NCBI RefSeq assembly: GCF_032884065.1
Contig: NW_027062689.1
Span: 310,001-374,000 of the forward strand
DNA length: 64,000 bases
From: Artemia franciscana
Lineage: Eukaryota > Arthropoda > Branchiopoda > Anostraca > Artemiidae
Reading direction: 5' to 3'
The notes beneath the pieces were generated by a model. It saw nothing but the letters and a program-made list of their open reading frames with translations, was not told the origin of the DNA and did not search any database. Positions 28,412 to 56,297 of the stretch are shown piece after piece (within the stretch, counting starts at the first letter, position 1; every line of letters starts with the position of its first letter). Both the position numbers and the translations under genes were made by a program.

Positions 28412-29083
<672 letters not shown>

Positions 29084-29185
29084 TTTATACCATAGCCACA
29101 CTTCCTGTTTTGTATGAGGGAAGTGGTTATTCTAAAAATCTATTTCTCAATAAAATCGTTATTTCCAAAGTTTTCAAGCTATGCA

Positions 29186-31750: not shown

Positions 31751-32382
31751 TAAAATTCTAGTTAATTGACTTCTTGCTTTCTCAGAAAGGGTTTAGGTTA
31801 GGAAAATGAAACTTTCAGGGATGAATCTACAGACTAAAGTATGGCCTGGGAAGGTATTTTGAAGCAACTAGCCTAACTCCACTCCTTCTCCCTCTAGAGG
31901 GCCCTGACTTTTCATGACCTTTAAAAATATGTGTGTTATAAAGGTGAAACCTTGAAAGATATATCTTCTGCTTTATTGAAGTACAACACAATTGTTTTCA
32001 TCTTCATAACTTTGCTCAATTCCATTTAATAAGGTTTTAAAGATATGCAAATACATCTCCTAAATTAAAAAAAAAAATACTGATATGGCTCAAAATTCTA
32101 CACAAATAACAGAAATTACATTTCAGAACTAAAGGCAGAGAAAAAGCAACTAGTAACTGAAAATTAAGGTAAAATGTTGTTTTGTCAAAATTTTAATAGG
32201 CATGACCTCTAATGTAGGCAAATTTCAGGGCCCTCTAGAGGGAGAAGGAGCAGAGGTGGGTACTTTAAAATACCTTCCCAGGACATACTATAGCCTATAT
32301 ACCCATCCCTGAAAGTTTCATTTTCCTAACCTAAACCCCTTCCGAGATAGCAAGAAGTCAATTAGCCTAACTAGAATTTTAC
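31751..32382. repeat. 0.63-kb inverted repeat (copy 1)
   Basis: The left arm 31,751-31,908 (taaaattctagttaattgac through ccctctagagggccctga) is the reverse complement of 32,226-32,382 with several differences; the spacer is about 317 bp. Each arm carries tttaggttaggaaaatgaaa and ctccttctccctctagaggg-type blocks. It lies just upstream of the + strand element G. Could be a fold-back element or an inverted duplication of an element leader. Confidence 0.85.
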
Positions 32383-32482
32383 CATATAAAAAATTAGAAA
32401 TTTATAATTACATTCATTTGTGTAAGAAATAAACTTTCCTCCCACCTGCCTAATATTTAAATAGGCTATAGCCTGCCCTAAA

Positions 32483-33083
32483 TTGTTCTTAGGCTCTGTA
32501 CTGAATTCTCCAGCAGACTTTGATTTTCTAGTGCCAAAACTTTCAGAACTAAAAGTGCTACTTCATGAAAAGGATGTAGATGTTTTCTGTGTTTGTGAGG
32601 TGTGTCCTAAGAACTTGTTGACCAAATTAGATGATGCACATATTCAAATCCCTGGATACTTACTCCTGAGCAACCTAGATAGTAACCTGTGTCAAAGAGG
32701 AGTGTCTATCTACACTATGCTTGGGATTAAGGTAGATAAAATTGATTTTTCTATTTCTCAACCTATTAATGCTTGGGCAGAACATGTATTAATTAGACTT
32801 CTGATTGGATTCAAAACTGTGAATATTGGTGTGCTTTACTGCAGCCCATCAGCTCTAAACCAACTAGTATCTCACCAAGCTGTTTCTAACCTTTTACAGA
32901 TGTTTTGCAATTTCAATTCATCACTTGTGCTTTATGGTGATTTTAATATGCCAGAAGTTGGTTGTTTTGAAGGTATTGGGTACTCTCCCCCCTAATAGCC
33001 CTTCCTACACAACCACCCAAACCTTTGCTGACAACTTCCTAACTCAGATAATAATGCAGCCCTCTAGATTTGGACATTTGTAA
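32483..33083 (+). pseudogene. Element G endonuclease part (copy 1)
   Basis: A 170-codon frame resembles most of a CR1-like endonuclease: FLVPKLSELKVLLHEKDVDV, FCVCEVCPKN (catalytic Glu), IQIPGYLLLSNL, RGVSIYTMLGI, NIGVLYCSPSA and VLYGDFNMPEVGCFEGIGYS. A slip in the C run near 32,990 moves the frame; it then continues TTTQTFADNFLTQIIMQPSR until TAA at 33,081. The extreme N-terminus is missing. In copy 2 the box reads GDFD and the Cys is Trp (VGWFEG). Confidence 0.8.
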
Positions 33084-34199
33084 CAACCATTGTTACTAGA
33101 TCTCCTTATTACAAATGATCATGAGAGGATTACTTCCACTTGTTACCTTCCAGCTATTGGTGCAAGTGACCACATATGCATAATTAATGACGTTAATATT
33201 AACCATAGTCATGATGGTAAACATACGAGAACTTTTACCAATTGCACTTTGATCCATGAAGAACTAGCTAACATAAATTGGGATGAGGAATTATCAGATG
33301 AGACAGACATTGAATCTAGTTGGAATTGCCTTAAGTCTACTTTGCTAGGTGCATGTAGGAAGCATACAAAGGTTTATTGGTCAGATAAATTAAAGACTCT
33401 TCCATACCTTCCCAGGAATATTAAGAAAATTATCAGAAAGAAAAATAGAGCATGGAATAAATATCTAAAATGCAAATGTGTCAACCATCACAGCAAATAC
33501 ACTATGCTCCAAAACAAGCTGAGAAACATGACAAGAAAAGTTATCTCAGACCATGAAGAATCTATCACAAATGACTCAAAGAAAAACCCCAAAAAATTCT
33601 GGCATTATGTTACAGCCAACAACCCTTCCTGTCAACACACCAACAGGCTAAAAAAATCAGATGGCTCCAGTACTACCAACCCAAAAGAAATTGCTGATTA
33701 CATGAATGCCAGCTTTTACACAAACTTCACCTCTAAGCCACCTGGTATTACACTCCCAACCATGCCTCCTGTAATAATTACTCAAGAAGATGTATTTAAA
33801 ATACTAAGAAATTTAAACTCCAACAAAGCTGCTGGACCTGATAACCTTCACCCCTGGCTTTTGATAGAATCTAATTCTCACATTTCCCTCCCCCTTGTCA
33901 GAATATTCAACATGTCCCTGGCCAAAAAGTCAGTACCAAATGACTGGAGAACAGCAAATATTATACCAATTTTTAAGAAAGGTGACAAGGATAGCCCAGG
34001 AAATTATCAACCAGTAAGCCTAACCTCAGCCATTTGCAAGATCATGGAAGGTATGATTAACCATGCTCTAATAAACTATTTAGAAGAAAATACTCTTATT
34101 AGCAATAGACAACATGGATTTTGTAGGGGCAGGTCAATTGACAGCAACTTTATTCAGTCATATGGTCATTACCTTAAATTGTATTGTCCAGCGAAATAA
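33084..34199 (+). pseudogene. Element G endonuclease end, linker and RT fingers (copy 1)
   Basis: A 369-codon frame: LLDLLITNDHERI and IGASDHICII (endonuclease SDH), a basic linker (RNIKKIIRKKNRAWNKYLKC), KKNPKKFWHYVTANNPS, NSNKAAGPDNLHPWLL, WRTANIIPIFKKGDKDSPGN, YQPVSLTSAICKIMEGMINH and RQHGFCRGRSIDSNFIQSY. It then runs into a stop and directly into the 3' end of element B. Motifs A to E are absent: the element is 3'-truncated, unusual for a retrotransposon because normal insertion truncates the 5' end, so B's insertion or a rearrangement removed the rest. Confidence 0.85.
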
Positions 34200-34204
34200 G
34201 GATT

Positions 34205-36704
34205 AAATCCTGTAGAATTGCTCGTTAGTGATGATGATGGTTAGACATCACAACGGCATCCCACTCATTTTGCCATGGGTTTGATGACCATTCTCCATCA
34301 ACAGCTCTTTTAAAGGCAGCTGTGCTGGGGGTAGTGACTGCTTTTTTGGTGAGAGAATTCTACAAACTCATTATTCTATAAGTGAAGAAGTTATTGCATA
34401 GTCTAGTGGCAGCTCTCTTCTGATACAGTTTCCAACTATGCCCCCTAGTTCTAGCAGACTGGTTCTTATGCGTCATGATAATATCACCCCTTTTATGTCT
34501 GTAGACAAGAGTGGGGAGTTTCAGCCTCTTCAGACGGGATGAGTAGTTTAAATATTAACATCCCTCAATTGCTTTTGTAGCCCATCTCTGAACTGTTTCT
34601 AACTTCTGCTGGTCACCTTTGTTGAGGGGGCTAGCAACACACATGCCAAACTCCAAATTAGGCCTGACCAATGCCTTATATAATTTAGTCATCACCATAG
34701 GTGACCTGCTAGTGATTGTTCTTTTTATAATGCCCAGGGTTTGGAGTGCTTCGGCTACGGCTGTCTGTGTGTGTATAGTGAATTTTAATTCAATATCAAC
34801 TATGACACCCAAGTCTCTCTCCACTTCAGATGACATAATAGTCTGCCTTGATCCATCCATCCCTAACATATGATAAGGGCATTTCTAATTTTTCTTTCCA
34901 AAGTGGATTGTTCAACATTTGTTTACATTGAATTCAAGCCTCCACAAAGTTGCCCAATGGGAAAGTGCCCACAGGTCATTCTGCGTAGAGGCTCTCTTAT
35001 CGGGTGTATCGACAGTTCCAATGAGTTTGGAGTCATCAGCATAAAGACTTATTTTATTTTTGACTGTGGTTGGTTCATCATTAATATAAATGTTGAATAA
35101 AGTTGGTCCCAAGATGGTTCCCTGGGGCACTCCACTTAATACTTCCACCTCTTCTGAAAAGAATACCTGTCCATTTTTTCCAAATATTTTCACCCTTTGC
35201 TTTCTCCCGGAAAGAAACTGGAACACCCACTCTACGATTTCATTATGTATTCCAATTGCAAATAACTTGCTCCTTAGTCGACAGTGACATACTTTATCAA
35301 AGGCTTTTGCAAAATCCAATAGAATTAAGTCGACAGGGATTGCTTGATCTAGATGCTCAGTAACATAATCATATGTATCAATCAAATTAGTTTCAACCAA
35401 GCATCCATGTCTAAAGCCATGCTGACTATCATTGAGCAGCTCATTGGTGGCCAGGTGTTCGACAATGTGAGTATTCACGATTCCTTCTAAGATTTTACCA
35501 GCTACAGATGTAAGACTAATGGGTTGATAATTGGAAACGTTATTGCGGCTACCTCCTTTGTGTACAGGTGTAATGTTTGCATCTTGCCAGTCTTGAGGAA
35601 TCTGCTTAGTATCAAGAGACTTCTGAAGCATGTTTGTAAGGGGAAGGGCAATTTCCGCATGAGCTTCATTCAATACTCTTGGGTGAACTTCATCAGGGCC
35701 AATTGATTTGTTAGGATTAAGCAGCTTCAGCCGCCTCTCCACATCAGAGGCAACCACAGTTATCTTTTGCATAGGTTCCCCAATAGAATATTCTGGTGCT
35801 TCTGGTAAGGGGGCATTGTCAGGAGGCGTGAACACTGACTTAAATTGTCTACTTGATTCAGCTGCTATATTATTTGGGGTACTAACTATATTGCCATTCA
35901 CAAGTAGTTTTGTAACTGAATGTCTCCCCGGATTCCAAGCCGAAGGATACTTCCAAAATCTCTTAGGATTAGATTTGAATCCAATGCCAATCCTTCTTCA
36001 TATTCTGTTGTAAGCTTTCTCGTGAGATACCTAACTTTATTCCGGGTATGTTTAAATTTTTCATAATTTTCATGGGAGGGGCTACTTTTATATTTGCTCC
36101 AATACTTCTTCTTTTTCCGTACAGCTTGCTTGACATCACGGGTGATCAATGGTAGGGTTTTGGGTCTTCTTTTCCAGGAAATTACTGTATGTTTTTCTGT
36201 TGCTTTAATTAAAACCCTTTTCATTTCAAGCCAAGCCTCCTCCATATTCTTATCATCAATGAATGACCAATCCTGGTTTGCTAACTCATGTCTGACCTGG
36301 TTGTAATTTGTGTATATATGCTTAATCCAATTATCCTTCTGTGGGTACAACCTAAGCCTACAAATAATTGCAACATGGTCACTCGCTCCAAATGGTGGTT
36401 CCAAGTCAACACTAATGAGCATCTCATGGTCATTAATAAACAAAAGGTCTATTAGGGTTGGGTTCTGCCCACTTCTATACCTGGTCGGAAAATCAATTGC
36501 TTGGTATAGAGAATGTTCATGAAGGCAGTCCAAAAGTGGGCAATTTGAGTTTTCAACCCCTTCTGCAACAGCAAACCCCTAAATCCAGTGTAATTCTGGT
36601 AAATTAAAATCTCCCACAATAAGAACATTCTTATAACAATGCTTCATAACATTATTAATAGAATAAGCAATTGCTAGAAGGGAACTTGTCTGACAGGGGG
36701 AACT
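34205..36704 (-). pseudogene. Element B, CR1-like, ORF2 without most of endonuclease (copy 1)
   Basis: The minus-strand ORF2 can be followed to a terminal HHHH-stop at 34,225. Open parts are 36,533-35,898 (endonuclease end with GASDH, linker), 35,901-34,912 (RT with NYQPISLTSVAGKILEGIVN, QHGFRHGC, LLDFAKAFDKVCH, SGVPQGTILGP, YADD) and 34,869-34,555 (C-terminal domain). A lost T at about 35,973-35,976 shifts the frame between the first two; stops near 34,912, 34,555 and the W-to-TAG codon near 34,360 are shared by all copies. The endonuclease is cut at the array junction, leaving IVGDFNLPELHWI and a TAG. Confidence 0.88.
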
Positions 36705-36716
36705 AGTAAACAACAC
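36692..36716. other. Array junction 1 (B endonuclease to A endonuclease)
   Basis: gacagggggaact from element B is followed directly by agtaaacaacacatatc from element A. The parental flanks are gacagggggaactgggactt (63,082 on) and ggggcggatagtaaacaaca (23,512 on). Only the single t before agtaaac is shared, so microhomology is at most 1 bp. Confidence 0.93.
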
Positions 36717-37383
36717 ATATCACCAGTGATGCCACTTCCTTGGGAAGCTTCTTAGGCCTGCACCACAACCATAATGCTTCAAAACCATGCTTATTTGGTA
36801 TATTACTAAAAGTGAGAACTCGATTTCTTATAGACGATCGACAAATAATACCAACACCACCACCATGTGTTACTGAAATATCATTGGGTGTCACTCTAGG
36901 TTTGAAATAGGTATCATATCCTTCAAATGCTACAACATCTTCAGTCGCGGACCATGATTCACAGATACAAGCAATATCAACCAGTTTATTCTTCAAGCAA
37001 AGTTCAACCTCTTCTAATTTGTTCATAAGTGACCGGACATTTGATAATAGTATTTTCGGAAATATATAGGGATGAAAGGGGGGCTTTACACTGCAGTCTC
37101 GAATCTCCTTGCCAACACATTGAATCGGTTCCAAGTTGGGATACTCGGAAGACATGGTTTGAGGGGTGGGTGAATCTTTGATTTCTTTGAAATTCCAAAT
37201 TGGTTGGTTGTTAGTACTGGATATATTGTCGGAAGGCTGGCAGATGTTGGTTCTTACCAGTTTCTCCAAGTTTTCACGAGGAGTGGCTGGTATGAGGGGG
37301 GAGGGATCTGCATTGGCTGATTTAAGACAGGTGGTTTGAGCTTCAAACTCATAAGTGGGACTGTAAACTGTTGTCTTTGGCAA
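36703..37383 (-). pseudogene. Element A endonuclease start, truncated by junction (copy 2)
   Basis: 226 codons, near-identical to the first part of the 24,199-23,177 gene. It runs through NVRSL, CESW and GGGVGI and ends at VICVVY, where the junction creates an immediate TAG. Compared with copy 1, HGFAVL reads HGFEAL. The catalytic GDFN and SDH boxes are lost. Confidence 0.9.
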
Positions 37384-37668
37384 CCATGTTTTAACAGAGG
37401 TGGGATTTTTCGCTCCCCGTTTTTTGAACTTCGCAAATCAGTATTGGAACGTAGCTTTTTCCTTCTGTGGGAAGTGAGATGCACATTAGGACAACAGTTC
37501 TTGAAACAAAGGCCATGAGCAAATTTTTTACACAGAGATCTGTGAGGCAGAATACATCTCTTGAACATAACATATACCCTTTCCTTACCTGGCTTATAGG
37601 GGAATTTCAGGGACCCTTGGCTCCGTCAAAGGATGGCCTACTCAGTGATTGACCTTCTTGTCTCCTTT

Positions 37669-39669
37669 TAGAGACTATCAGTTTTCTCTGTCTCTATTCT
37701 TTTCTTCTCTGAGAACTAATCAATGAGCTTGACTCTCTACCAGATTAAATAAAAAAACAAGTTTTTTTAACTGAAAGTAAGGAGCGACATTAAAACTTAA
37801 AACGAACAGAAATTACCCCGTATATGAAAGGGGCTGCTCTCTCTTCAACGCTTGCTCTTTGCACTAAAGTTTGACTCTTTCTCTCAACTCTACTTTTTAA
37901 AACAGTAAAAGCTTTAGAGACTATCAGTTTTCTCTGTCTTTATTCTTTTCTTCTCTCAGAACTAATCAATGAGCTTGACTCTCTACCAGATTAAATAAAA
38001 CAACAAGTTTTTTTAATTGAAAATAAGGAGCGACATTAAAACTTAAAACGAACAGAAATTACCCCGTATATGAAAGGGGCTGCTCCCTCTTCAACGCTTG
38101 CTCTTTGCACTAAAGTTTGACTCTTTCTCTCAACTCTACTTTTTAAAACAGTAAAAACTTTAACGTAAAGAGCAGGGCTTTGAAGAAGGAGCAGCCCCTT
38201 TCATATATGGGGTAATTTCTGTTCGTTTTAAGTTTTAATGTCGCTCCTAACTTTCAGTTAAAAAAACTTGTTTTTTTTTATTTAATCTCTGAACGTTTTT
38301 TAGTTAATCCATGTTTTGATTTCGGCTCTCCGCAGATAATAATTAACGCGAAATTTGCATATTTATTTATTTGGCTAAATGGCTTTCCCATAGTTTTGAT
38401 CGAATGATTTTGCGAAAAAAGGAGGGGAAGGAGGCCCAGTTGCTCTCCAATTTTTTGGGTACTTAAAAAGGCAACTATAACTTTTAGTTTTTACGAACGT
38501 TTTCATTAGTAAAAGATATACGTAACTTACGAATTAGCTTACGTAACAAACTTCTATGTTCGTATGTTTTTATTTCGTATATAAGAAGGTTCGTCCACTC
38601 GTCAATACCTCGTCAATAACTCTTTGCATTAAAGCTTAAATTTTGTCCCCTGAATCACAAAGGCCGTAGAATAAATAGTTGAAATTATGAAAAATCCTTT
38701 TGCGTAAAGAGTTAGGTATTAGGAAGAGGTGAACCCCTTCTATGTGTAATATTTTCTGTTTGTTCTAAGTTTTAATACTACTCCATACTTCCAGTTGAAA
38801 AAAACTTTTTCATATTTATTTTCTCATTATTTTTCTTAATAATGCTAGAAAATTTATGGAAATCTTCTCCCCCCATGACAAATTCCTCCATGAAAAATTT
38901 CCCCCACATAGCCCCCTCTTCTCAAACCCCCCTCCCAACCAAAAAATCCCCTTGAAAACGTCTCTACATTTCCCAACAACCATTAATATATGCAAACACT
39001 GGTCAAAATTTGCAACTTGCAGCCCCTCCCACGGGGACTATGGGGGAGTAAGTCGTCCCCAAAGACATAGTTATAAGGTTTTTCGACTATGTTGAATAAA
39101 ATGGCTATCTCAGAATTTTGATTTGACTAATTTGGGAAAAAAATGAGCATGGGAGAGAGCCTAGGTGTCCTCCGATTTTTTTTGGTCACTTAAAAAGGGC
39201 ACTAGAACTTTTCATTTCTGTTCGAATGAGCCCTCTCGCAAAATTCTAGAACCACTGCGTCGATACGATCACCCCTGGGAAAAAGAAAAAAAAAACAAAA
39301 AAACAAATAAACACGCATCCGTGATTTGTCTTCTGGTTAAAAATTCAAAATTCCACATTTTTGCAGATAGGATCTTGGAACTTGTACAGTAGGGTTCTCT
39401 ACCACGCTGAATCTGATGGTATGATTTTCATTAAGATTCTATGACTTTTAGGGGGTGTTTAACCCTATTTTCTAAAATAGGCCAGATTTTCTCAGGCTCG
39501 TAACTTTTGATGGGTAAGACTAAACTTGATGAAACTTATATATTTAAAATCAGCATTAAAATGCAATTCTTTTGATGTAATTATTGGTATCAAAATTCCG
39601 TTTTTTAGAGTTTTGGTTACTATTGAGCCGGGTCGCTCCTTACTACAGTTCGTTACCACGAACTGTTTG
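37669..39669 (-). repeat. 246-bp duplication plus composite F (copy 2)
   Basis: Equivalent of 24,485-26,484: tandem unit at 37,669-38,161 and composite body to the terminal palindrome at 39,669. A few private substitutions (for example tgttttgatttcgg near 38,313, where copies 1 and 3 have tgtttttatttcgg). Confidence 0.85.
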
Positions 39670-40747
39670 ATATTTGTAAATATTTATTAAGTAATAATAT
39701 GAATAATATTTATTAAGTAATTAAGTAATAATAATATCTGATATAGCTTGAACCAGAACACTGCTTGCCTGCATTGCTTGCAAGTACGTTCAAATGTAAT
39801 ATTTATCATGCCCATACATTCCTGTGTGGAAAGGTATTTAAGATAGTTTATAAGGAAAGGGACGTCTAGGACTTTCCAGTCTTAAGTTTTTTTTAGCATA
39901 ATCATAGGTCAATAGAAGAGATTGCCTAAAGATGACCAGTTGTAGATGACCAGGTTGTACTCTTTCTTACATCCGGGTCAGAATCTTGATCTTAACTTGA
40001 GGACCCATTCACATTGCTCCTTTAAAGTAATGATCTATTCTTTGTTTATTTATTTATTTCATCACTTCTTTACATGTCTTTTATCTCTAATCGATTAGTG
40101 TCATTTTTCTTTTCTAGGTTAAGAGGTAGCTGACCAGTAAATTTCGCAGTAAAAAACCGTGTAAGCCTGTACACTGTTGCCGTCTTTTTGTGTGATAGCA
40201 TTAATTTTCACAGAAAAAGACGTTGCAACAGACCAGGCTTCTTGTAATTTTTTATGTTAAAATAAAAATCAAGGGCTTTCAACGTTAAATTCGCTTCATT
40301 CTCTGTAGAAATCTTGTTCATGCCTTTTTTTTTTCTCCTTCTATTTCACATTTTAAAAGAAACGGAGCCCTTAACATTTTGGAAAGCATTTCTTAGGTTT
40401 TTAATAAAATCAAAGATTATTGTTTTTTTGGGAGGGGGGGGGGGCATTATAAATGGATAGAGATGTATTTTTTCCGAAGTGTTCTCGTTGTATTTTCGCC
40501 ATATTGTTTTCTGCTGAATATATGTACTAGGACTCGTAGTTTTAGTATTTCCATACTAAGCTTTCGTAGTGGTAAAAGCAAGGAAAAATTTCTGTTCGTT
40601 TTAAGTGTTAATGCTGCTTTTTACTTTCAGTTGAAAAACTTGTTAACTGACGTTCTTCAAATTATCCCAGAAGATCCCTTTCCCTCGCCTCCCTCGTGTA
40701 AGATTTCGTTTGAATTTGTTTTTCATTTGAAAATTTGGTCGGATATC

Positions 40748-41593
40748 TAGGAGGAAGCATATCCTCTAGCATGTTCTCTTTGCCATATTACAGAGAGTTG
40801 TGTTCAAGTTGAAGACTGGCGCAGCCCACTCCTTCAAATCACGAAAGAAGTGTGTCAAGAATGTTCAGAAGCCCCAGAGTTCTTCAATGCTATAACGGAC
40901 CACTTCATGACAAAGACAACTTCATGGCTAGAGTTTGGAGATTGCGTCATATCAGACGCTGATTTTGCCAATGACCTGGCCATCCTAGTAGACTCCATGG
41001 ATCAGCTGCTGTAAGAGCTTCGAATCATATGTGAAGAGGCTGCATATGTAGGATTGCAGATAAACCGCGATAAAACAAAAATTATGGCCTTAGATCTATC
41101 TTCTCCTCCTGTCATTTTTGCAGTTAGTCTAGACAGAACAACTAGTATTGAAGTTGTCCAAAGGCTCACCAACCTGGGCTGTGCAGTTTCTTCAGATTGC
41201 TCGCTTCTTCCTGAGCTGCAAGCAAGGATATCCAAAGTATCTTCTGCCTTGGGCAGGATGAGCCGTCACTTTTGGCGAAAACCAAACGTAAGTTGTTCGA
41301 CTAAACTGCAGATTTTCAACACCCTCGTCGTCCTTTACGAAGGAGAGAAATGGCATGCATCACCGGCTACCCTATAGGATATCCATGAGTTCCAATCGAA
41401 GTGTCGGAGAAGGATCAAAGGTCAATGGTGGTTGGATTTTATGAGTTCCCTGCCGCAGCTTTCAAGCAGTCTTGGTTTTCTGCCCGAGAAACCGAGCAAC
41501 TCTTACGATGATTTGGACCTAATTCGAATGCCCCCGCACTCTCTCGCAAAGACGTTCTTTGACTTTAGCCCTATGAAGGCTGGTTTGAAGTGA
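40748..41593 (+). pseudogene. RTE-like RT fragment D (copy 2)
   Basis: Same frame, FAND catalytic change and two in-frame stops as copy 1, so these defects predate the array. Only scattered substitutions differ. Confidence 0.82.
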
Positions 41594-42156
41594 CCCAGCT
41601 GTCGGACCGAAGGTCTGACAGCCGGTCTGAGCTCCTGGCGATGGCAAATATCATACTAACTGAAGTACAAACGCTCACACTGGATCAAAGTGGATGGAGG
41701 AGGCAGACGTCACTCTCTATGAAGAGCAGTGCCGGGAAGGAGACCTAAGTCAAGCAAGTCAAGTCTTGGGGGTAAAATGGGTGTGTGTTGTAAAGCCAGA
41801 TCATTGAGGGTGAGATGGATGACCTCTATTATCACCAAAGGTTAGGAGGTTAATAGATTTTCAAGCAATGGGCAGTATCTTGGTAGCGAGGCTGCCTCAG
41901 CCAGTTAGAAGGAGGAGTGACCTAATAAGCTTTTGAGAGAAAGGAGTATGTTAAATATCGATTATATTTATTCGGCTCTAAGCACAAAAACGGGACCAAA
42001 CTTGACTCAAAAGTTTACAAGTGAAATTATCAACAAGTAATTAGCACATAAGATAATAATCAAGACATACAATCCTTATTATATCAAAAAAAGTCAAAAT
42101 CCAGTTTTGACAAAAAAAAGCTTAAAGATCAAGACCAACCACTTATCTAAAAACAG

Positions 42157-42277
<121 letters not shown>

Positions 42278-42715
42278 TTTATACCATAGCCACACTTCCT
42301 GTTTTGTATGAGGGAAGCGGTTATTCTAAAACTCAATTTCTCAATAAAATCGTTATATCCAAACGTTTTCAAGCTATGCAATTTGTTTTATTAAAATCAA
42401 TTCCCGACTCTTGATTTGATCAGCTTTATTACACGTGGGAGGGAGGATTTGTTTTATTAAAATCAATTTCCGACTCTTGATTTGGTCAGTTTTACTACAC
42501 GTGGGAGGGACGCTTGAATACATGGCCAGGCCCCACCGATAAGGCCTCGTAGAATAAGGTTATTAATAGTGAAAAATGTTTCCCTTCTGCCCTATCTTGT
42601 CTCCAGCGAGCTAATTTTTTGATCATTATAAGCGTGTGTTCAGTGTATTTAATAGTTTTCTTCAGTATTTTTATTAAAAGCTGCTTAAACCGCTATTACC
42701 ATACTATCTCCTGCA

Positions 42716-43101
42716 GGCTCCCGTCCAGCCTGTAACAATATCTGAATTTTATCGGGCTTTAAGAAAATTTAAGCGTTCAAATAGCCTTGATGATGACGGC
42801 CTTTCCTACCGATTTTTTGCTTATGATTGTCTTGCTCTACTTAACCATTTACAAATATTTTTCCAGTCTTTCTTAGCACAGTCGTTTGTTCCTGATAGTT
42901 TAGTTTATGGCCGTGTAACGTCTATTCAAAAGCGAGGTTGATTCCGCGTCATGTGTAAATTATCGTCCCATTAAAGTATCGTGTTTTTTAAGCAAGTTGC
43001 TTGAACATTTTTTACTACCATAAATTGAGTCAAAGTGTGAATTTACGCCTTTTCAGTTTGGTTTTCGGAAAAATTTCGGTTGCTCCCATGCACATATATG
43101 G
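42716..43101 (+). pseudogene. Non-LTR RT fragment E (copy 2)
   Basis: Equivalent of the copy 1 fragment with the same frameshift and stop. Substitutions include C to T near 42,831 shared with copy 3. Confidence 0.75.
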
Positions 43102-44943
43102 CTGAAGAGCCTTCAGCCATAAATGACATTTTGAGGTTATTAATATTAATACAACTGCTTCAAAAAAAGATGCACTGACCTCAAACTCCAAAGGTATCCT
43201 TCGGCTTATCGATAATTTCTATCTTAGTGCCACTGATTCACACTTGATGGCTGTAAAAGAGCAAATAAACTTAAAGACAGTCTTATTAACATTAGTTTTA
43301 AATTTCTGCATATCCCCAGGTATCAAGATTATCCCCCTAAATATCCCCCAGATTAGAATAAAAACTCCCTCAAAAATTAAAATGCACTGTCCCTCCATAT
43401 TTATTTCCAAGGTCAATATTATTCTTAATTATAGATTCCCAAGGAGCTCTCTGATTTTGAGAAAAAAGAAGTTTACTTGGCATAAACGAGCTTATTCATA
43501 TTTTAGATTTTGCAACTCGACTCCTAAACTCCTTAGCCAATTCATTTTTTGATGTCAATGCATCCAGTAAGAAGTAGTAAACTTAAGGAAATGCTTCAAT
43601 AGTGCAAACCTCCACCTTACGTCAAAACCAATGACAAACCGATATGTTCTGAGCAAGATAAGAACAACTTTGCCTCAGTTGGATTTTCCATTTGGCCATC
43701 GTCGGTTAGTTTGGCCTATAAAATGACACAACTATAAGTTTCATTCAATAGTTAGCTCTCACGGATGGGGATAACTTTAAAGGAGCGACGGGAAACCGTT
43801 CACACTTATGGAAAAGTGTTTGAACGCACCAGACGTCATGAAGGGAAGCACAAATTTCAAATTAATTTCGCATGAATGATTCAGACTAAGAAGCTTTAAC
43901 CTTGGTAGCATTTTCAGTAGTTTTAGCTAGCTCTAGTTTAATAGAATTTGAGGAATTAGTTAATCCAGGAAAAAAACGAAGATGATATATCCGACCATGA
44001 CTTTCTTTTCATTATTTCCCATTACGGGAAATTTCCTACCATGTTTCGGGTTTTTTCTTTGTATTCTTATATTCTTTGCGACAAGTGTCAAATAAATATG
44101 TAAAATTCTCCACCATAGCTATAAGATTATGGGTCTGCGGATGATTTATTCTCGATATGGTTCAACTTTTAAATATTTCGCCTTGGACTTTCCATGAAAC
44201 CCATTATGTTCCAAAGGTAAAAGTTGAAAAAAAAATCCAGCACAAAGATTTGACGGGAAAATGATTAATCCTGAGAGGAATTCCTTTGAGGAATAATGGG
44301 AATCCCATCCGTGTGAACTAACTATAAGGGTTTTGAAGGATTTGAATATTCAGTCGTAGAAGACAGAGGAAGAAAAGATTTTAAAGCTCAATTTAAAAAT
44401 GTATCTAAATGTTAGAAAATACTTGTTTTTAAAATTTATTATTTGAAGATAACGAAAGTTTGAAACTTATATAGCCATAGTAAGTGCTTTCTACTTATGC
44501 TTATTGAAATTTTTAACAAAATGAAAGTTGCCAAGGTCTAAAACTGCACTTGGGGTAGGCTTGGTAATGCTAGCCTAGACATTCAGATTAAGCATCTGTG
44601 TTTCCCTCAGCTCTGCTGAACCTTGGAAATCTCATATATACTAGTCCTAGGCTATCATATAAAGCTGAAATAGCTTTCAAAGCAAGCCTTTTGTCTTTAT
44701 AATAGGGGAGTCTAGACCTAGCCTATGTCCTCTGGAGTAAAGATGGTACATTTTTCGGTTAACTTGTTAATGAGATATTTAAGAAATAAACATACCTTTA
44801 GAGTCAGAATTTCCATTCTTAACTCAAATATTGAATTTGCAAGTAAAGTGATTAGCCTATTTTATTTGGAATGATCAAAGCCTAGGAAAAGATGTCAAGT
44901 GATATGTTTACTTTATTCATAGGCCACATCAGTAATATAAACA

Positions 44944-45575
44944 GTAAAATTCTAGTTAATTGACTTCTTGCTTTCTCAGAAAGGGTTTAGGTTAGGAAAA
45001 TGAAACTTTCAGGGATGAATCTACAGACTAAAGTATGGCCTGGGAAGGTATTTTGAAGCAACTAGCCTAACTCCACTCCTTCTCCCTCTAGAGGGCCCTG
45101 ACTTTTCATGACCTTTAAAAATATGTGTGTTATAAAGGTGAAACCTTGAAAGATATATCTTCTACTTTATTGAAGTACAACACAATTGTTTTCATCTTCA
45201 TAACTTTGCTCAATTCCATTTAATAAGGTTTTAAAGATATGCAAATACATCTCCTAAATTAAAAAAAAAATACTGATATGGCTCAAAATTCTACACAAAT
45301 AACAGAAATTACATTTCAGAACTAAAGGCAGAGAAAAAGCAACTAGTAACTGAAAATTAAGGTAAAATGTTGTTTTGTCAAAATTTTAATAGGCATGACC
45401 TCTAATGTAGGCAAATTTCAGGGCCCTCTAGAGGGAGAAGGAGCAGAGGTGGGTACTTTAAAATACCTTCCCAGGACATACTATAGCCTATATACCCATC
45501 CCTGAAAGTTTCATTTTCCTAACCTAAACCCCTTCCGAGATAGCAAGAAGTCAATTAGCCTAACTAGAATTTTAC
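44944..45575. repeat. 0.63-kb inverted repeat (copy 2)
   Basis: Arms 44,944-45,101 and 45,419-45,575, spacer about 317 bp. Arms are no more alike within this copy than in copy 1, so no recent arm homogenisation is apparent. Confidence 0.85.
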
Positions 45576-45675
45576 CATATAAAAAATTAGAAATTTATAA
45601 TTACATTCATTTGTGTAAGAAATAAACTTTCCTCCCACCTGCCTAATATTTAAATAGGCTATAGCCTGCCCTAAA

Positions 45676-47392
45676 TTGTTCTTAGGCTCTGTACTGAATT
45701 CTCCTGCAGACTTTGATTTTCTAGTGCCAAAACTTTCAGAACTAAAAGTGCTACTTTATGAAAAGGATGTAGATGTTTTCTGTGTTTGTGAGGTGTGTCC
45801 TAAGAACTTGTTGACCAAATTAGATGATGCACATATTCAAATCCCTGGATACTTACTCCTGAGCAACCTAGATAGTAACCTGTGTCAAAGAGGAGTGTCT
45901 ATCTACACTATGCTTGGGATTAAGGTAGATAAAATTGATTTTTCTATTTCTCAACCTATTAATGCTTGGGCAGAACATGTATTAATTAGACTTCTGATTG
46001 GATTCAAAACTGTGAATATTGGTGTGCTTTACTGCAGCCCATCAGCTCTAAACCAACTAGTATCTCACCAAGCTGTTTCTAACCTTTTACAGATGTTTTG
46101 CAATTTCAATTCATCACTTGTGCTTTATGGTGATTTTGATATGCCAGAAGTTGGTTGGTTTGAAGGTATTGGGTACTCTCCCCCCTAATAACCCTTCCTA
46201 CACAACCACCCAAACCTTTGCTGACAACTTCCTAACTCAGATAATAATGCAGCCCTCTAGATTTGGACATTTGTAACAACCATTGTTACTAGATCTCCTT
46301 ATTACAAATGATCATGAGAGGATTACTTCCACTTGTTACCTTCCAGCTATTGGTGCAAGTGACCACATATGCATAATTAATGACGTTAATATTAACCATA
46401 GTCATGATGGTAAACATACGAGAACTTTTACCAATTGCACTTTGATCCATGAAGAACTAGCTAACATAAATTGGGATGAGGAATTATCAGATGAGACAGA
46501 CATTGAATCTAGTTGGAATTGCCTTAAGTCTACTTTGCTAGGTGCATGTAGGAAGCATACAAAGGTTTATTGGTCAGATAAACCAAAGACTCTTCCATAC
46601 CTTCCCAGGAATATTAAGAAAATTATCAGAAAGAAAAATAGAGCATGGAATAAATATCTAAAATGCAAATGTGTCAACCATCACAGCAAATACACTATGC
46701 TCCAAAACAAGCTGAGAAACATGACAAGAAAAGTTATCTCAGACCATGAAGAATCTATCACAAATGACTCAAAGAAAAACCCCCAAAAATTCTGGCATTA
46801 TGTTACAGCCAACAACCCTTCCTGTCAACACACCAACAGGCTAAAAAAATCAGATGGCTCCAGTACTACCAACCCAAAAGAAATTGCTGATTGCATGAAT
46901 GCCAGCTTTTACACAAACTTCACCTCTAAGCCACCTGGTATTACACTCCCAACCATGCCTCCTGTAATAATTACTCAAGAAGATGTATTTAAAATACTAA
47001 GAAATTTAAACTCCAACAAAGCTGCTGGACCTGATAACCTTCACCCCTGGCTTTTGATAGAATCTAATTCTCACATTTCCCTCCCCCTTGTCAGAATATT
47101 CAACATGTCCCTGGCCAAAAAGTCAGTACCAAATGACTGGAGAACAGCAAATATTATACCAATTTTTAAGAAAGGTGACAAGGATAGCCCAGGAAATTAT
47201 CAACCAGTAAGCCTAACCTCAGCCATTTGCAAGATCATGGAAGGTATGATTAACCATGCTCTAATAAACTATTTAGAAGAAAATACTCTTATTAGCAATA
47301 GACAACATGGATTTTGTAGGGGCAGGTCAATTGACAGCAACTTTATTCAGTCATATGGTCATTACCTTAAATTGTATTGTCCAGCAAAATAA
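45676..47392 (+). pseudogene. Element G endonuclease and RT fingers (copy 2)
   Basis: Equivalent of 32,483-34,199 with the same C-run frameshift, TAA and 3' truncation. Private changes: GDFD for GDFN in the active-site box, VGWFEG for VGCFEG, and SDKPKTL for SDKLKTL. Shared with copy 3: NPQKF and IADCMN. Confidence 0.85.
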
Positions 47393-47397
47393 GGATT

Positions 47398-49897
47398 AAA
47401 TCCTGTAGAATTGCTGGTTAGTGATGATGATGGTTAGACATCACAACGGCATCCCACTCAGTTTGCCATGGCTTTGATGACCATTCTCCATCAACAGCTC
47501 TTTTAAAGGCAGCTGTGCTGGGGGTAGTGACTGCTTTTTTGGTGAGAGAATTCTACAAACTCACTATTCTATAAGTGAAGAAGTTATTGCATAGTCTAGT
47601 GGCAGCTCTCTTCTGATACAGTTTCCAACTATGCCCCCTAGTTCTAGCAGACTGGTTCTTATGCGTCATGATAATATCACCCCTTTTATGTCTGTAGACA
47701 AGAGTGGGGAGTTTCAGCCTCTTCAGACGGGATGAGTAGTTTAAATATTAACATCCCTCAATTGCTTTTGTAGCCCATCTCTGAACTGTTTCTAACTTCT
47801 GCTGGTCACCTTTGTTGAGGGGGCTAGCAACACACATGCCAAACTCCAAATTAGGCCTGACCAATGCCTTATATAATTTAGTCATCACCATAGGTGACCT
47901 GCTAGTGATTGTTCTTTTTATAATGCCCAGGGTTTGGAGTGCTTCGGCTACGGCTGTCTGTGTGTGTATAGTGAATTTTAATTCAATATCAACTATGACA
48001 CCCAAGTCTCTCTCCACTTCAGATGACATAATAGTCTGCCTTGATCCATCCATCCCTAACATATGATAAGGGCATTTCTAATTTTTCTTTCCAAAGTGGA
48101 TTGTTCAACATTTGTTTACATTGAATTCAAGCCTCCACAAAGTTGCCCAATGGGAAAGTGCCCACAGGTCATTCTGCGTAGAGGCTCTCTTATCGGGTGT
48201 ATCGACAGTTCCAATGAGTTTGGAGTCATCAGCATAAAGACTTATTTTATTTTTGACTGTGGTTGGTTCATCATTAATATAAATGTTGAATAAAGTTGGT
48301 CCCAAGATGGTTCCCTGGGGCACTCCACTTAATACTTCCACCTCTTCTGAAAAGAATACCTGTCCATTTTTTCCAAATATTTTCACCCTTTGCTTTCTCC
48401 CGGAAAGAAACTGGAACACCCACTCTACGATTTCATTATGTATTCCAATTGCAAATAACTTGCTCCTTAGTCGACAGTGACATACTTTATCAAAGGCTTT
48501 TGCAAAATCCAATAGAATTAAGTTGACAGGGATTGCTTGATCTAGATGCTCAGTAACATAATCATATGTATCAATCAAATTAGTTTCAACCAAGCATCCA
48601 TGTCTAAAGCCATGCTGACTATCATTGAGCAGCTCATTGGTGGCCAGGTGTTCGACAATGTGAGTATTCACGATTCCTTCTAAGATTTTACCAGCTACAG
48701 ATGTAAGACTAATGGGTTGATAATTGGAAACGTTATTGCGGCTACCTCCTTTGTGTACAGGTGTAATGTTTGCATCTTGCCAGTCTTGAGGAATCTGCTT
48801 AGTATCAAGAGACTTCTGAAGCATGTTTGTAAGGGGAAGGGCAATTTCCGCATGAGCTTCATTCAATACTCTTGGGTGAACTTCATCAGGGCCAATTGAT
48901 TTGTTAGGATTAAGCAGCTTCAGCCGCCTCTCCACATCAGAGGCAACCACAGTTATCTTTTGCATAGGTTCCCCAATAGAATATTCTGGTGCTTCTGGTA
49001 AGGGGGCATTGTCAGGAGGCGTGAACACTGACTTAAATTGTCTACTTGATTCAGCTGCTATATTATTTGGGGTACTAACTATATTGCCATTCACAAGTAG
49101 TTTTGTAACTGAATGTCTCCCCGGATTCCAAGCCGAAGGATACTTCCAAAATCTCTTAGGATTAGATTTGAATCCAATGCCAATCCTTCTTCATATTCTG
49201 TTGTAAGCTTTCTCGTGAGATACCTAACTTTATTCCGGGTATGTTTAAATTTTTCATAATTTTCATGGGAGGGGCTACTTTTATATTTGCTCCAATACTT
49301 CTTCTTTTTCCGTACAGCTTGCTTGACATCACGGGTGATCAATGGTAGGGTTTTGGGTCTTCTTTTCCAGGAAATTACTGTATGTTTTTCTGTTGCTTTA
49401 ATTAAAACCCTTTTCATTTCAAGCCAAGCCTCCTCCATATTCTTATCATCAATGAATGACCAATCCTGGTTTGCTAACTCATGTCTGACCTGGTTGTAAT
49501 TTGTGTATATATGCTTAATCCAATTATCCTTCTGTGGGTACAACCTAAGCCTACAAATAATTGCAACATGGTCACTCGCTCCAAATGGTGGTTCCAAGTC
49601 AACACTAATGAGGATCTCATGGTCATTAATAAACAAAAGGTCTATTAGGGTTGGGTTCTGCCCACTTCTATACCTGGTCGGAAAATCAATTGCTTGGTAT
49701 AGAGAATGTTCATGAAGGCAGTCCAAAAGTGGGCAATTTGAGTTTTCAACCCCTTCTGCAACAGCAAACCCCTAAATCCAGTGTAATTCTGGTAAATTAA
49801 AATCTCCCACAATAAGAACATTCTTATAACAATGCTTCATAACATTATTAATAGAATAAGCAATTGCTAGAAGGGAACTTGTCTGACAGGGGGAACT
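47398..49897 (-). pseudogene. Element B, ORF2 (copy 2)
   Basis: Open parts 49,726-49,091, 49,094-48,105 and 48,062-47,748. It carries the same one-base deletion (gatttg for gattttg, near 49,165) and the same neighbouring substitutions as copy 1, in contrast to the rest of the copy, which resembles copy 3. Truncated by the second junction at 49,897. Confidence 0.88.
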
Positions 49898-49909
49898 AGT
49901 AAACAACAC
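49885..49909. other. Array junction 2, identical to junction 1
   Basis: Same gacagggggaact/agtaaacaac sequence as at 36,692. Identity of both junctions means the second extra copy arose by recombination between existing copies rather than by an independent break. Confidence 0.93.
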
Positions 49910-50576
49910 ATATCACCAGTGATGCCACTTCCTTGGGAAGCTTCTTAGGCCTGCACCACAACCATAATGCTTCAAAACCATGCTTATTTGGTATATTACT
50001 AAAAGTGAGAACTCGATTTCTTATAGACGATCGACAAATAATACCAACACCACCACCATGTGTTACTGAAATATCATTGGGTGTCACTCTAGGTTTGAAA
50101 TAGGTATCATATCCTTCAAATGCTACAACATCTTCAGTCGCGGACCATGATTCACAGATACAAGCAATATCAACCAGTTTATTCTTCAAGCAAAGTTCAA
50201 CCTCTTCTAATTTGTTCATAAGTGACCGGACATTTGATAATAGTATTTTCGGAAATATATAGGGATGAAAGGGGGGCTTTACACTGCAGTCTCGAATCTC
50301 CTTGCCAACACATTGAATCGGTTCCAAGTTGGGATACTCGGATGACATGGTTTGAGGGGTGGGTGAATCTTTGATTTCTTTGAAATTCCAAATTGGTTGG
50401 TTGTTAGTACTGGATATATTGTCGGAAGGCTGGCAGATGTTGGTTCTTACCAGTTTCTCCAAGTTTTCACGAGGAGTGGCTGGTATGAGGGGGGAGGGAT
50501 CTGCATTGGCTGATTTAAGACAGGTGGTTTGAGCTTCAAACTCATAAGTGGGACTGTAAACTGTTGTCTTTGGCAA
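49896..50576 (-). pseudogene. Element A endonuclease start, truncated by junction (copy 3)
   Basis: Same truncation after VICVVY, same TAG created at the junction, and the HGFEAL variant shared with copy 2. Confidence 0.9.
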
Positions 50577-50861
50577 CCATGTTTTAACAGAGGTGGGATT
50601 TTTCGCTCCCCGTTTTTTGAACTTCGCAAATCAGTATTGGAACGTAGCTTTTTCCTTCTGTGGGAAGTGAGATGCACATTAGGACAACAGTTCTTGAAAC
50701 AAAGGCCATGAGCAAATTTTTTACACAGAGATCTGTGAGGCAGAATACATCTCTTGAACATAACATATACCCTTTCCTTACCTGGCTTATAGGGGAATTT
50801 CAGGGACCCTTGGCTCCGTCAAAGGATGGCCTACTCAGTGATTGACCTTCTTGTCTCCTTT

Positions 50862-52861
50862 TAGAGACTATCAGTTTTCTCTGTCTCTATTCTTTTCTTC
50901 TCTGAGAACTAATCAATGAGCTTGACTCTCTACCAGATTAAATAAAAAAACAAGTTTTTTTAACTGAAAGTAAGGAGCGACATTAAAACTTAAAACGAAC
51001 AGAAATTACCCCGTATATGAAAGGGGCTGCTCTCTCTTCAACGCTTGCTCTTTGCACTAAAGTTTGACTCTTTCTCTCAACTCTACTTTTTAAAACAGTA
51101 AAAGCTTTAGAGACTATCAGTTTTCTCTGTCTTTATTCTTTTCTTCTCTCAGAACTAATCAATGAGCTTGACTCTCTACCAGATTAAATAAAACAACAAG
51201 TTTTTTTAATTGAAAATAAGGAGCGACATTAAAACTTAAAACGAACAGAAATTACCCCGTATATGAAAGGGGCTGCTCCCTCTTCAACGCTTGCTCTTTG
51301 CACTAAAGTTTGACTCTTTCTCTCAACTCTACTTTTTAAAACAGTAAAAACTTTAACGTAAAGAGCAGGGCTTTGAAGAAGGAGCAGCCCCTTTCATATA
51401 TGGGGTAATTTCTGTTCGTTTTAAGTTTTAATGTCGCTCCTAACTTTCAGTTAAAAAAACTTGTTTTTTTTTATTTAATCTCTGAACGTTTTTTAGTTAA
51501 TCCATGTTTTTATTTCGGCTCTCCGCAGATAATAATTAACGCGAAATTTGCATATTTATTTATTTGGCTAAATGGCTTTCCCATAGTTTTGATCGAATGA
51601 TTTTGCGAAAAAAGGAGGGGAAGGAGGCCCAGTTGCTCTCCAATTTTTTGGGTACTTAAAAAGGCAACTATAACTTTTAGTTTTTACGAACGTTTTCATT
51701 AGTAAAAGATATACGTAACTTACGAATTAGCTTACGTAACAAACTTCTATGTTCGTATGTTTTTATTTCGTATATAAGAAGGTTCGTCCACTCGTCAATA
51801 CCTCGTCAATAACTCTTTGCATTAAAGCTTAAATTTTGTCCCCTGAATCACAAAGGCCGTAGAATAAATAGTTGAAATTATGAAAAATCCTTTTGCGTAA
51901 AGAGTTAGGTATTAGGAAGAGGTGAACCCCTTCTATGTGTAATATTTTCTGTTTGTTCTAAGTTTTAATACTACTCCATACTTCCAGTTGAAAAAAACTT
52001 TTTCATATTTATTTTCTCATTATTTTTCTTAATAATGCTAGAAAATTTATGGAAATCTTCTCCCCCCATGACAAATTCCTCCATGAAAAATTTCCCCCAC
52101 ATAGCCCCCTCTTCTCAAACCCCCCTCCCAACCAAAAAATCCCCTTGAAAACGTCTCTACATTTCCCAACAACCATTAATATATGCAAACACTGGTCAAA
52201 ATTTGCAACTTGCAGCCCCTCCCACGGGAACTATGGGGAAGTAAGTCGTCCCCAAAGACATAGTTATAAGGTTTTTCGACTATGTTGAATAAAATGGCTA
52301 TCTCAGAATTTTGATTTGACTAATTTGGGAAAAAAATGAGCATGGGAGAGAGCCTAGGTGCCCTCCGATTTTTTTGGTCACTTAAAAAGGGCACTAGAAC
52401 TTTTCATTTCTGTGCGAATGAGCCCTCTCGCAAAATTCTAGAACCACTGCGTCGATACGATCACCCCTGGGAAAAAGAAAAAAAAAACAAAAAAACAAAT
52501 AAACACGCATCCGTGATTTGTCTTCTGGTTAAAAATTCAAAATTCCACATTTTTGCAGATAGGATCTTGGAACTTGTACAATAGGGTTCTCTAATACGCT
52601 GAATCTGATGGTATGATTTTCATTAAGATTCTATGACTTTTAGGGGGTGTTTAACCCTATTTTCTAAAATAGGCCAGATTTTCTCAGGCTCGTAACTTTT
52701 GATGGGTAAGACTAAACTTGATGAAACTTATATATTTAAAATCAGCATTAAAATGCAATTCTTTTGATGTAATTATTGGTATCAAAATTCCGTTTTTTAG
52801 AGTTTTGGTTACTATTGAGCCGGGTCGCTCCTTACTACAGTTCGTTACCACGAACTGTTTG
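50862..52861 (-). repeat. 246-bp duplication plus composite F (copy 3)
   Basis: Tandem unit at 50,862-51,354 and composite to the terminal palindrome at 52,861. Near 52,361 it reads gtgccctcc where copies 1 and 2 have gtgtcctcc. Confidence 0.85.
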
Positions 52862-53939
52862 ATATTTGTAAATATTTATTAAGTAATAATATGAATAATA
52901 TTTATTAAGTAATTAAGTAATAATAATATCTGATATAGCTTGAACCAGAACACTGCTTGCCTGCATTGCTTGCAAGTACGTTCAAATGTAATATTTATCA
53001 TGCCCATACATTCCTGTGTGGAAAGGTATTTAAGATAGTTTATAAGGAAAGGGACGTCTAGGACTTTCCAGTCTTAAGTTTTTTTTAGCATAATCATAGG
53101 TCAATAGAAGAGATTGCCTAAAGATGACCAGTTGTAGATGACCAGGTTGTACTCTTTCTTACATCCGGGTCAGAATCTTGATCTTAACTTGAGGACCCAT
53201 TCACATTGCTCCTTTAAAGTAATGATCTATTCTTTGTTTATTTATTTATTTCATCACTTCTTTACATGTCTTTTATCTCTAATCGATTAGTGTCATTTTT
53301 CTTTTCTAGGTTAAGAGGTAGCTGACCAGTAAATTTCGCAGTAAAAAACCGTGTAAGCCTGTACACTGTTGCCGTCTTTTTGTGTGATAGCATTAATTTT
53401 CACAGAAAAAGACGTTGCAACAGACCAGGCTTCTTGTAATTTTTTATGTTAAAATAAAAATCAAGGGCTTTCAACGTTAAATTCGCTTCATTCTCTGTAG
53501 AAATCTTGTTCATGCCTTTTTTTTTTCTCCTTCTATTTCACATTTTAAAAGAAACGGAGCCCTTAACATTTTGGAAAGCATTTCTTAGGTTTTTAATAAA
53601 ATCAAAGATTATTGTTTTTTTGGGAGGGGGGGGGGGCATTATAAATGGATAGAGATGTATTTTTTCCGAAGTGTTCTCGTTGTATTTTCGCCATATTGTT
53701 TTCTGCTGAATATATGTACTAGGACTCGTAGTTTTAGTATTTCCATACTAAGCTTTCGTAGTGGTAAAAGCAAGGAAAAATTTCTGTTCGTTTTAAGTGT
53801 TAATGCTGCTTTTTACTTTCAGTTGAAAAACTTGTTAACTGACGTTCTTCAAATTATCCCAGAAGATCCCTTTCCCTCGCCTCCCTCGTGTAAGATTTCG
53901 TTTGAATTTGTTTTTCATTTGAAAATTTGGTCGGATGTC

Positions 53940-54785
53940 TAGGAGGAAGCATATCCTCTAGCATGTTCTCTTTGCCATATTACAGAGAGTTGTGTTCAAG
54001 TTGAAGACTGGCGCAGCCCACTCCTTCAAATCACGAAAGAAGTGTGTCAAGAATGTTCAGAAGCCCCAGAGTTCTTCAATGCTATAACGGACCACTTCAT
54101 GACAAAGACAACTTCATGGCTAGAGTTTGGAGATTGCGTCATATCAGACGCTGATTTTGCCAATGACCTGGCCATCCTAGTAGACTCCATGGATCAGCTG
54201 CTGTAAGAGCTTCGAATCATATGTGAAGAGGCTGCATATGTAGGATTGCAGATAAACCGTGATAAAACAAAAATTATGGCCTTAGATCTATCTTCTCCTC
54301 CTGTCATTTTTGCAGTTAGTCTAGACAGAACAACTAGTATTGAAGTTGTCCAAAGGCTCACCAACCTGGGCTGTGCAGTTTCTTCAGATTGCTCGCTTCT
54401 TCCTGAGCTGCAAGCAAGGATATCCAAAGTATCTTCTGCCTTGGGCAGGATGAGCCGTCACTTTTGGCGAAAACCAAACGTAAGTTGTTCGACTAAACTG
54501 CAGATTTTCAACACCCTCGTCGTCCTTTACGAAGGAGAGAAATGGCATGCATCACCGGCTACCCTATAGGATATCCATGAGTTCCAATCGAAGTGTCGGA
54601 GAAGGATCGAAGGTCAATGGTGGTTGGATTTTATGAGTTCCCTGCCGCAGCTTTCAAGCAGTCTTGGTTTTCTGCCCGAGAAGCCGAGCAACTCTTACGA
54701 TGATTTGGACCTAATTCGAATGCCCCCGCACTCTCTCGCAAAGACGTTCTTTGACTTTAGCCCTATGAAGGCTGGTTTGAAGTGA
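53940..54785 (+). pseudogene. RTE-like RT fragment D (copy 3)
   Basis: Equivalent of 27,566-28,411, with the FAND box and both stops. A private synonymous change gives aaccgtgat near 54,256. Confidence 0.82.
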
Positions 54786-55347
54786 CCCAGCTGTCGGACC
54801 GAAGGTCTGACAGCCGGTCTGAGCTCCTGGCGATGGCAAATATCATACTAACTGAAGTACAAACGCTCACACTGGATCAAAGTGGATGGAGGAGGCAGAC
54901 GTCACTCTCTATGAAGAGCAGTGCCGGGAAGGAGACCTAAGTCAAGCAAGTCAAGTCTTGGGGGTAAAATGGGTGTGTGTTGTAAAGCCAGATCATTGAG
55001 GGTGAGATGGATGACCTCTATTATCACCAAAGGTTAGGAGGTTAATAGATTTTCAAGCAATGGGCAGTATCTTGGTAGCGAGGCTGCCTCAGCCAGTTAG
55101 AAGGAGGAGTGACCTAATAAGCTTTTGAGAGAAAGGAGTATGTTAAATATCGATTATATTTATTCGGCTCTAAGCACAAAAACGGGACCAAACTTGACTC
55201 AAAAGTTTACAAGTGAAATTATCAACAAGTAATTAGCACATAAGATAATAATCAAGACATACAATCCTTATTATATCAAAAAAAGTCAAAATCCAGTTTT
55301 GACAAAAAAAAGCTTAAAGATCAAGACCAACCACTTATCTAAAAACA

Positions 55348-55473
<126 letters not shown>

Positions 55474-55911
55474 TTTATACCATAGCCACACTTCCTGTTT
55501 TGTATGAGGGAAGCGGTTATTCTAAAACTCAATTTCTCAATAAAATCGTTATATCCAAACGTTTTCAAGCTATGCAATTTGTTTTATTAAAATCAATTCC
55601 CGACTCTTGATTTGATCAGCTTTAATAAACGTGGGAGGGAGGATTTGTTTTATTAAAATCAATTTCCGACTCTTGATTTGGTCAGTTTTACTACACGTGG
55701 GAGGGACGCTTGAATACATGGCCAGGCCCCACCGATAAGGCCTCGTAGAATAAGGTTATTAATAGTGAAAAACGTTTCCCTTCTGCCCTATCTTGTCTCC
55801 AGCGAGCTAATTTTTTGATCATTATAAGCGTGTGTTCAGTGTATTTAATAGTTTTCTTCAGTATTTTTATTAAAAGCTGCTTAAACCGCTATTACCATAC
55901 TATCTCCTGCA

Positions 55912-56297
55912 GGCTCCCGTCCAGCCTGTAACAATATCTGAATTTTACCGGGCTTTAAGAAAATTTAAGCGTTCAAATAGCCTTGATGATGACGGCCTTT
56001 CCTACCGATTTTTTGCTTATGATTGTCTTGCTCTACTTAACCATTTACAAATATTTTTCCAGTCTTTCTTAGCACAGTCGTTTGTTCCTGATAGTTTAGT
56101 TTATGGCCGTGTAACGTCTATTCAAAAGCGAGGTTGATTCCGCGTCATGTGTAAATTATCGTCCCATTAAAGTATCGTGTTTTTTAAGCAAGTTGCTTGA
56201 ACATTTTTTACTACCATAAATTGAGTCAAAGTGTGAATTTACGCCTTTTCAGTTTGGTTTTCGGAAAAATTTCGGTTGCTCCCATGCACATATATGG
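55912..56297 (+). pseudogene. Non-LTR RT fragment E (copy 3)
   Basis: Equivalent of 29,521-29,906 with the same frameshift and TAA. Confidence 0.75.

Follow-up and report, generated by a model that had tools for sequence, protein, structure and literature searches.

Does the middle unit of a long tandem array record a single unequal crossover between its neighbours, or are all of the units products of repeated exchange? The question is raised by a locus of Artemia franciscana at which three long units follow one another within a stretch of 64,000 nt (hereafter the window; positions 310001–374000 of the 2.30-Mb contig C103) in a 1.27-Gb assembly of 6468 contigs. A sequence-only reading had described copy 2 as a crossover hybrid, its left part like copy 3 and its right part like copy 1, with one exchange close to its right end. 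As shown below, the sites that are informative on the relationships of the three copies do not follow such a single switch.

The array and its elements

Self-blastn and alignment confirmed the three tandem units as they had been described. These are adjacent direct copies with 99.3–99.5% identity over 13.2 kb (self-blastn) and with identical internal junctions, and thus form a tandem segmental duplication, i.e., adjacent direct copies of more than 1 kb and more than 90% identity. As far as recognised, the content of the array is old transposon debris (Table 1). No host gene was recognised among nine scanned ORFs, of which seven fall within the array or overlap it and represent part of the unit's ORFs; their Pfam matches were to retroelement domains, except for one below-cut-off match to RPA43_OB. 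In the window we found no RNA families at the gathering score and no tRNAs (search run with the bacterial code).

Table 1. Features of the array and its surroundings (window coordinates)
Feature	Position	Strand	Description
LINE A	21182–24253	-	Endonuclease and reverse transcriptase frames with a stop between; ORFs, Pfam PF03372 and PF00078 above cut-off
Tandem unit, copy 1	23520–36703	+	13,184 bp; self-blastn, three-way alignment
Dispersed repeat	24806–26487 (approx.)	+	Further copies, at about 80–85%, lie on C4, upstream on C103 and in the window's left part; outgroup
(TA)n, copy 1	28979–29082	+	52 units
LINE C fragment, copy 1	32465–34199	+	ORFs 32465–32995 (no Pfam family) and 33084–34199 (RVT_1 below cut-off)
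LINE B part, copy 1	34168–36703	-	Used with other genomic copies as outgroups
Internal junction 1	36684–36723		Boundary between the LINE B and LINE A parts, which overlap by 1 bp (T)
Tandem unit, copy 2	36704–49896	+	13,193 bp; proposed hybrid, seen here as a mosaic; self-blastn, alignment, polarised sites
(TA)n, copy 2	42159–42276		59 units
Copy-2 tract	43269–43706		Copy-1 30074–30511; five consecutive derived states common to copy 1, in the 'copy-3-like' part
Exchange interval of the sequence-only reading, copy 2	47472–48203		Contains the best changepoint of private sites (between 47564 and 47568)
Internal junction 2	49877–49916		Agrees with junction 1 at all 81 bp compared
Tandem unit, copy 3	49897–63094	+	13,198 bp; self-blastn, three-way alignment
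(TA)n, copy 3	55353–55472		60 units
LINE B, copy 3	61301–63736	-	ORFs; PF00078 above cut-off, PF14529 and PF03372 below theirs

At 23520 the array begins within the endonuclease region of LINE A, and its right edge (63094) lies in LINE B, which in copy 3 runs on into the flank. Both elements are on the minus strand and both edges fall in the endonuclease region, the call for LINE B resting on Pfam matches below cut-offs. Each junction sequence consists of the left side of the right edge and the right side of the left edge, with one base (T) in common. As the two internal junctions are identical, we infer one founder duplication followed by homologous exchange; the former probably arose by end joining or template switching. 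In a by-eye codon alignment the break in LINE A (after 'VVY') and that in LINE B (after 'CFYRSP') occupy nearly equivalent positions in the endonucleases, to within 8 bp, and blastn gave no DNA alignment across the break between LINE A and LINE B. It is doubtful that weak similarity between two such highly diverged LINEs guided the duplication, and the near-coincidence of the breaks may be due to chance.

Further details of the elements were observed. The frame of LINE B is open over 555 codons in copy 3 and split in copies 1 and 2 (35942–35973, 49135–49166 and 62331–62363), and copies 1 and 2 have in common a 1-bp difference at 35973, within this element. The match of the unit to a paralogous locus on contig C4 stops at 34169 and matches to LINE B start at 34168, both inside the LINE C frame (to 34199); these boundaries could reflect an insertion of LINE B into LINE C that postdates the separation of the C4 and C103 loci. 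A 246-bp tandem doublet at 24483–24978 is present in every unit; at 24656 and 24727 copy 1 matches the partner repeat of the doublet and copies 2 and 3 differ from it.

Differences among the copies before polarisation

For comparison of the copies, the three units were aligned with MAFFT, contiguous gap columns were merged, and the TA-run indel and the terminal junction base were excluded. The alignment contained 96 events; copy 1 alone differed at 42 of them, copy 2 at 22 and copy 3 at 32. None of the 42 copy-1-private events lay right of 34279, and the best single changepoint in the private-site classes was placed between 34371 and 34375 (copy-1 coordinates; permutation p 0.0003, 3000 permutations), inside the exchange interval proposed for copy 2. 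For these unpolarised classes BIC preferred two segments (203.4 vs. 206.5 for three) and AIC kept dropping through all seven segments tested.

All nine left and ten right entries on which the hybrid had been based do exist, some with an offset of 1–5 bp (27461–27463 for 27466, 29637 for 29636, 31582 for 31581). Yet the left-hand entries (10 events) name only part of the 42 events private to copy 1. Scattered private sites had been mentioned, but none of the 20 events left of the changepoint in which copies 1 and 2 stand against copy 3, or of the 19 in which copies 1 and 3 stand against copy 2, had been named, and a likeness of the left part of copy 2 as a whole to copy 3 was not confirmed. The left part was found to be ordered in itself, with 17 runs of the copy-1 and copy-3 classes vs. 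28.1 expected (p 0.001) and, for all three classes, 32 runs vs. 50.8 expected (0 of 20,000 permutations as low). Along the unit, private sites were over-dispersed in copy 1 (index 3.57) and copy 3 (3.60), but not in copy 2 (1.12, p 0.32). The copy-1 differences cluster densely at 28596–28600 and 29124–29222, near (TA)n and a 66-bp tandem doublet, and 28520–29520 holds 11 copy-1-private events.

Divergence by region and pair ranged from 0.12 to 0.62%. For copies 2 and 3 in the left part it amounted to 39 events per 10,770 bp (0.36%), and for copies 1 and 2 in the right part to 3 per 2,413 bp (0.12%; p 0.07); the former was uneven, with 0 to 9 events per kb (p 0.004). When three sequences are compared without an outgroup, every difference between two states sets one copy apart, and an agreement of copy 2 with copy 3 can thus mean a mutation in copy 1. 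Only a mutation shared by copies 2 and 3 informs on their relationship.

Shared-derived sites and the edge effect

The outgroups all came from the same genome: a paralogous locus on the 63-Mb contig C4 (91–97% identity), dispersed repeats, and LINE copies. The C4 locus, taken as four 10-kb pieces, matches unit positions 26253–26487 and nearly all of 27196–34169, with pieces in both orientations; the stretch matching 27196–28770 is present there twice, in opposite orientations (L021 4219–5807 and L022 898–2707). Beyond the three copies, a probe of 29950–31150 gave one full-length match, on C4 at 91% (best 40 of 81 candidates), and a probe of 26560–27560 gave none (40 best candidates scored), its best match being 96% over 640 of 1001 bp. 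LINE B was detected in at least 37 other places at 89–98% (best 40 of 424 candidates). Five of its copies (92–98%) were used, three covering its full length in the unit and two a part; they match 34168–34463 at 92–94% and all or part of 34465–36703 at 97–98%. Dispersed-repeat outgroups were taken from the window left of 23400 and from the pieces L021–L026 and L030–L034, and provided 9 to 15 letters per site, not all of them independent.

Polarisation of the 96 events gave 38 that are shared-derived in two copies, 38 private-derived, 11 ambiguous or conflicting between outgroups, and 9 without an outgroup, the last being the leftmost events (23592–24373), in LINE A. The private and ambiguous totals are tallies of rows across the C4, LINE B and dispersed-repeat polarisations; support is weak for two private-derived calls, at 26108 (6 letters to 2) and at 35650 (A and T in the outgroups vs. 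a private G), and 32986 was put among the ambiguous for a gap in one C4 alignment. The shared-derived states were determined by C4 alone at 20 sites, by the dispersed repeat at nine and by LINE B copies at nine.

Results showed that the shared-derived sites conflict. Over the whole unit 16 unite copies 1 and 2, 12 unite copies 2 and 3, and 10 unite copies 1 and 3. When tabulated against the cut of the sequence-only reading, the informative sites were interspersed: the 31 on the left split into 12 (copies 2 and 3), 10 (1 and 2) and nine (1 and 3), and the seven on the right into six (1 and 2), none (2 and 3) and one (1 and 3). Instead of one switch along copy 2 there are 16 among the 38 sites, in 17 runs over the unit vs. 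25.8 expected under shuffling (p 0.002). A single switch as a sufficient account was thus rejected, with 20 of 38 misfits at the cut proposed and 16 at the best single cut (after 29637). The conflict is also seen within a short distance: nine sites in 24656–26218, each with 9–13 outgroup letters for and 0–1 against (letters from related repeats, not all independent), show all three pairings, copies 2 and 3 being united at 24656 and 24727, copies 1 and 3 at 25134, 25851 and 25861, and copies 1 and 2 at 25983, 26217 and 26218.

Among the entries listed for the hybrid, two of the nine on the left are shared-derived in copies 2 and 3 after polarisation (27461, 29637), six are private to copy 1 and one (23590s) is unpolarised; on the right, six of ten are shared-derived in copies 1 and 2, and four are private to copy 3. 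The changepoint of the unpolarised sites does fall inside the exchange interval, whereas the polarised sites allow no mapping of a crossover.

Homoplasy was evaluated from base-specific C4 divergence at invariant columns for 46 C4 substitutions (32986 included, two indels excluded). False shared-derived states were expected at 1.25 (sd 1.1) of the 46, a value that unusually mutable sites would raise, and 19 were seen; homoplasy as the source of the conflict was thus rejected at the C4 sites. When only the 18 sites with several outgroups were considered, the left part contained four sites uniting copies 2 and 3, four uniting 1 and 3, and three uniting 1 and 2, with eight runs overall and at least six misfits to any single switch. 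Clustering of the polarised sites in the left part alone gave p 0.027, and over the unit it became weaker after merging of same-class neighbours (17 runs vs. 20.9, p 0.08). The array fits gene conversion or concerted evolution in that its shared-derived sites conflict and lie in tracts, the tracts being weaker after this merging.

Private differences are concentrated at the two ends of the array. Copy 1 alone accounts for 10 of the 11 events in the first 1,250 bp, and copy 3 alone for 10 of the 11 in the last 1,250 bp; between these ends the private events of copies 1, 2 and 3 number 32, 21 and 21. The zones around the internal junctions are alike, with two events between copies 2 and 3 in the first 2.3 kb and three between copies 1 and 2 in the last 2.41 kb. 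Under a one-unit misalignment homology would stop at the outer edges and be centred on the junctions, so exchange should be least likely at these edges. In spacer arrays of Daphnia, terminal repeats seldom take part in such events (PMC3036644). An edge effect laid over a patchwork looks like the source of the apparent left–right switch in copy 2, which it mimics when only three sequences are compared.

Formation of the array and comparison with known systems

We consider it probable that the patchwork copies and the edge effect go back to a single founder duplication, an increase to three copies by unequal exchange, and repeated conversion. Judged from the shared junction, a duplication would have joined the endonuclease region of LINE B to that of LINE A with a 1-bp overlap and so produced two units of 13.2 kb. 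A third would then have been gained by homologous exchange, at least once, between units out of register, as suggested by the copy number and the identical junctions. Repeated short exchanges or gene conversions, within the array and probably also between alleles, may have shuffled derived variants until each copy was a patchwork, a pattern that is seen directly. Copies 1 and 3 would have retained private differences at their outer ends, where homology stops, and the zones at the internal junctions would have stayed alike. Against this explanation stand the significant single changepoint, the BIC value for two segments, the p of 0.08 after merging and of 0.027 for the left part by itself, the nine leftmost events that have no outgroup, and the 20 of 38 shared-derived sites that depend on C4 alone.

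That one unequal crossover between two-copy arrays, within the interval of Table 1, gave copy 2 its left part from the second copy and its right part from the first, with all else private mutation, appears very improbable. With both internal junctions identical over 81 bp, unequal exchange is the natural way for two copies to become three, and its direction is as expected, the right end of copy 2 being like copy 1; the changepoint in the unpolarised private sites is significant, and on the right of the cut copies 1 and 2 are united by six of the seven shared-derived sites. A single exchange is nevertheless insufficient: 19 of the 31 sites on the left fail to unite copies 2 and 3, homoplasy predicts far fewer such cases at the C4 substitutions than were seen, and equal divergence is predicted on both sides, where 0.36% and 0.12% were seen (p 0.07), that of copies 2 and 3 being uneven within the left part itself. 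Still more improbable is ectopic conversion from the C4 locus or other LINEs into single units, by which 'ancestral' states in one copy would mimic shared-derived states in the other two. Tracts such as the five consecutive C4-like states of copy 3 at 30074–30511 could be explained in this way, but a donor differing there by about 8% should bring far more differences per tract than the 0–14 per kb seen between units, and the same conflict recurs with dispersed repeats some 15–20% away.

The main rival is a product of assembly, for which we see a small but real chance: four to six real sequences, the units of two haplotypes, could have been stitched or phase-switched into three mosaics, possibly with one copy surplus. 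Phase switching could also give mosaics, a wrong overlap between units yields the same a-(b/a)-b order as unequal crossover, the array is known from one sequence, and C103 is short alongside contigs such as C4. Heterozygosity could moreover give divergence in the range found between the copies. However, no N occurs in the window or in 10 kb on either side; the private differences of all three copies and their unequal TA lengths show that copy 2 is more than parts of copies 1 and 3 joined together; and beyond the three copies one probe had its single full-length match at 91% and the other had none (40 best candidates each).

A patchwork made by repeated exchange is nothing unusual in arrays of this kind. 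Among known systems, recent tandem segmental duplications that undergo interlocus gene conversion resemble this one in the high identity of their units, direct order and mosaic shared variants; a difference is that no host gene was recognised here among the ORFs scanned. An array-end effect was reportedly described by McAllister and Werren in 1999 for satellite DNA and is similar in that outer ends of terminal repeats retain private differences, but it is said to concern many short repeats, unlike the three long units of this array. The intergenic spacer repeats of Daphnia rDNA are likewise few in copies, altered in number by unequal exchange and incompletely homogenised, with terminal repeats seldom in exchange (PMC3036644); here, in turn, transposon debris makes up a 13.2-kb unit, present in three copies in one assembled sequence. 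A caution follows for comparisons of three paralogs without an outgroup, in which a shift in how densely private mutations lie resembles a crossover point. Most sites could be polarised with paralogous and dispersed copies from the genome itself, and this overturned the conclusion. The array is a small, clear example of mosaic evolution with an edge effect.
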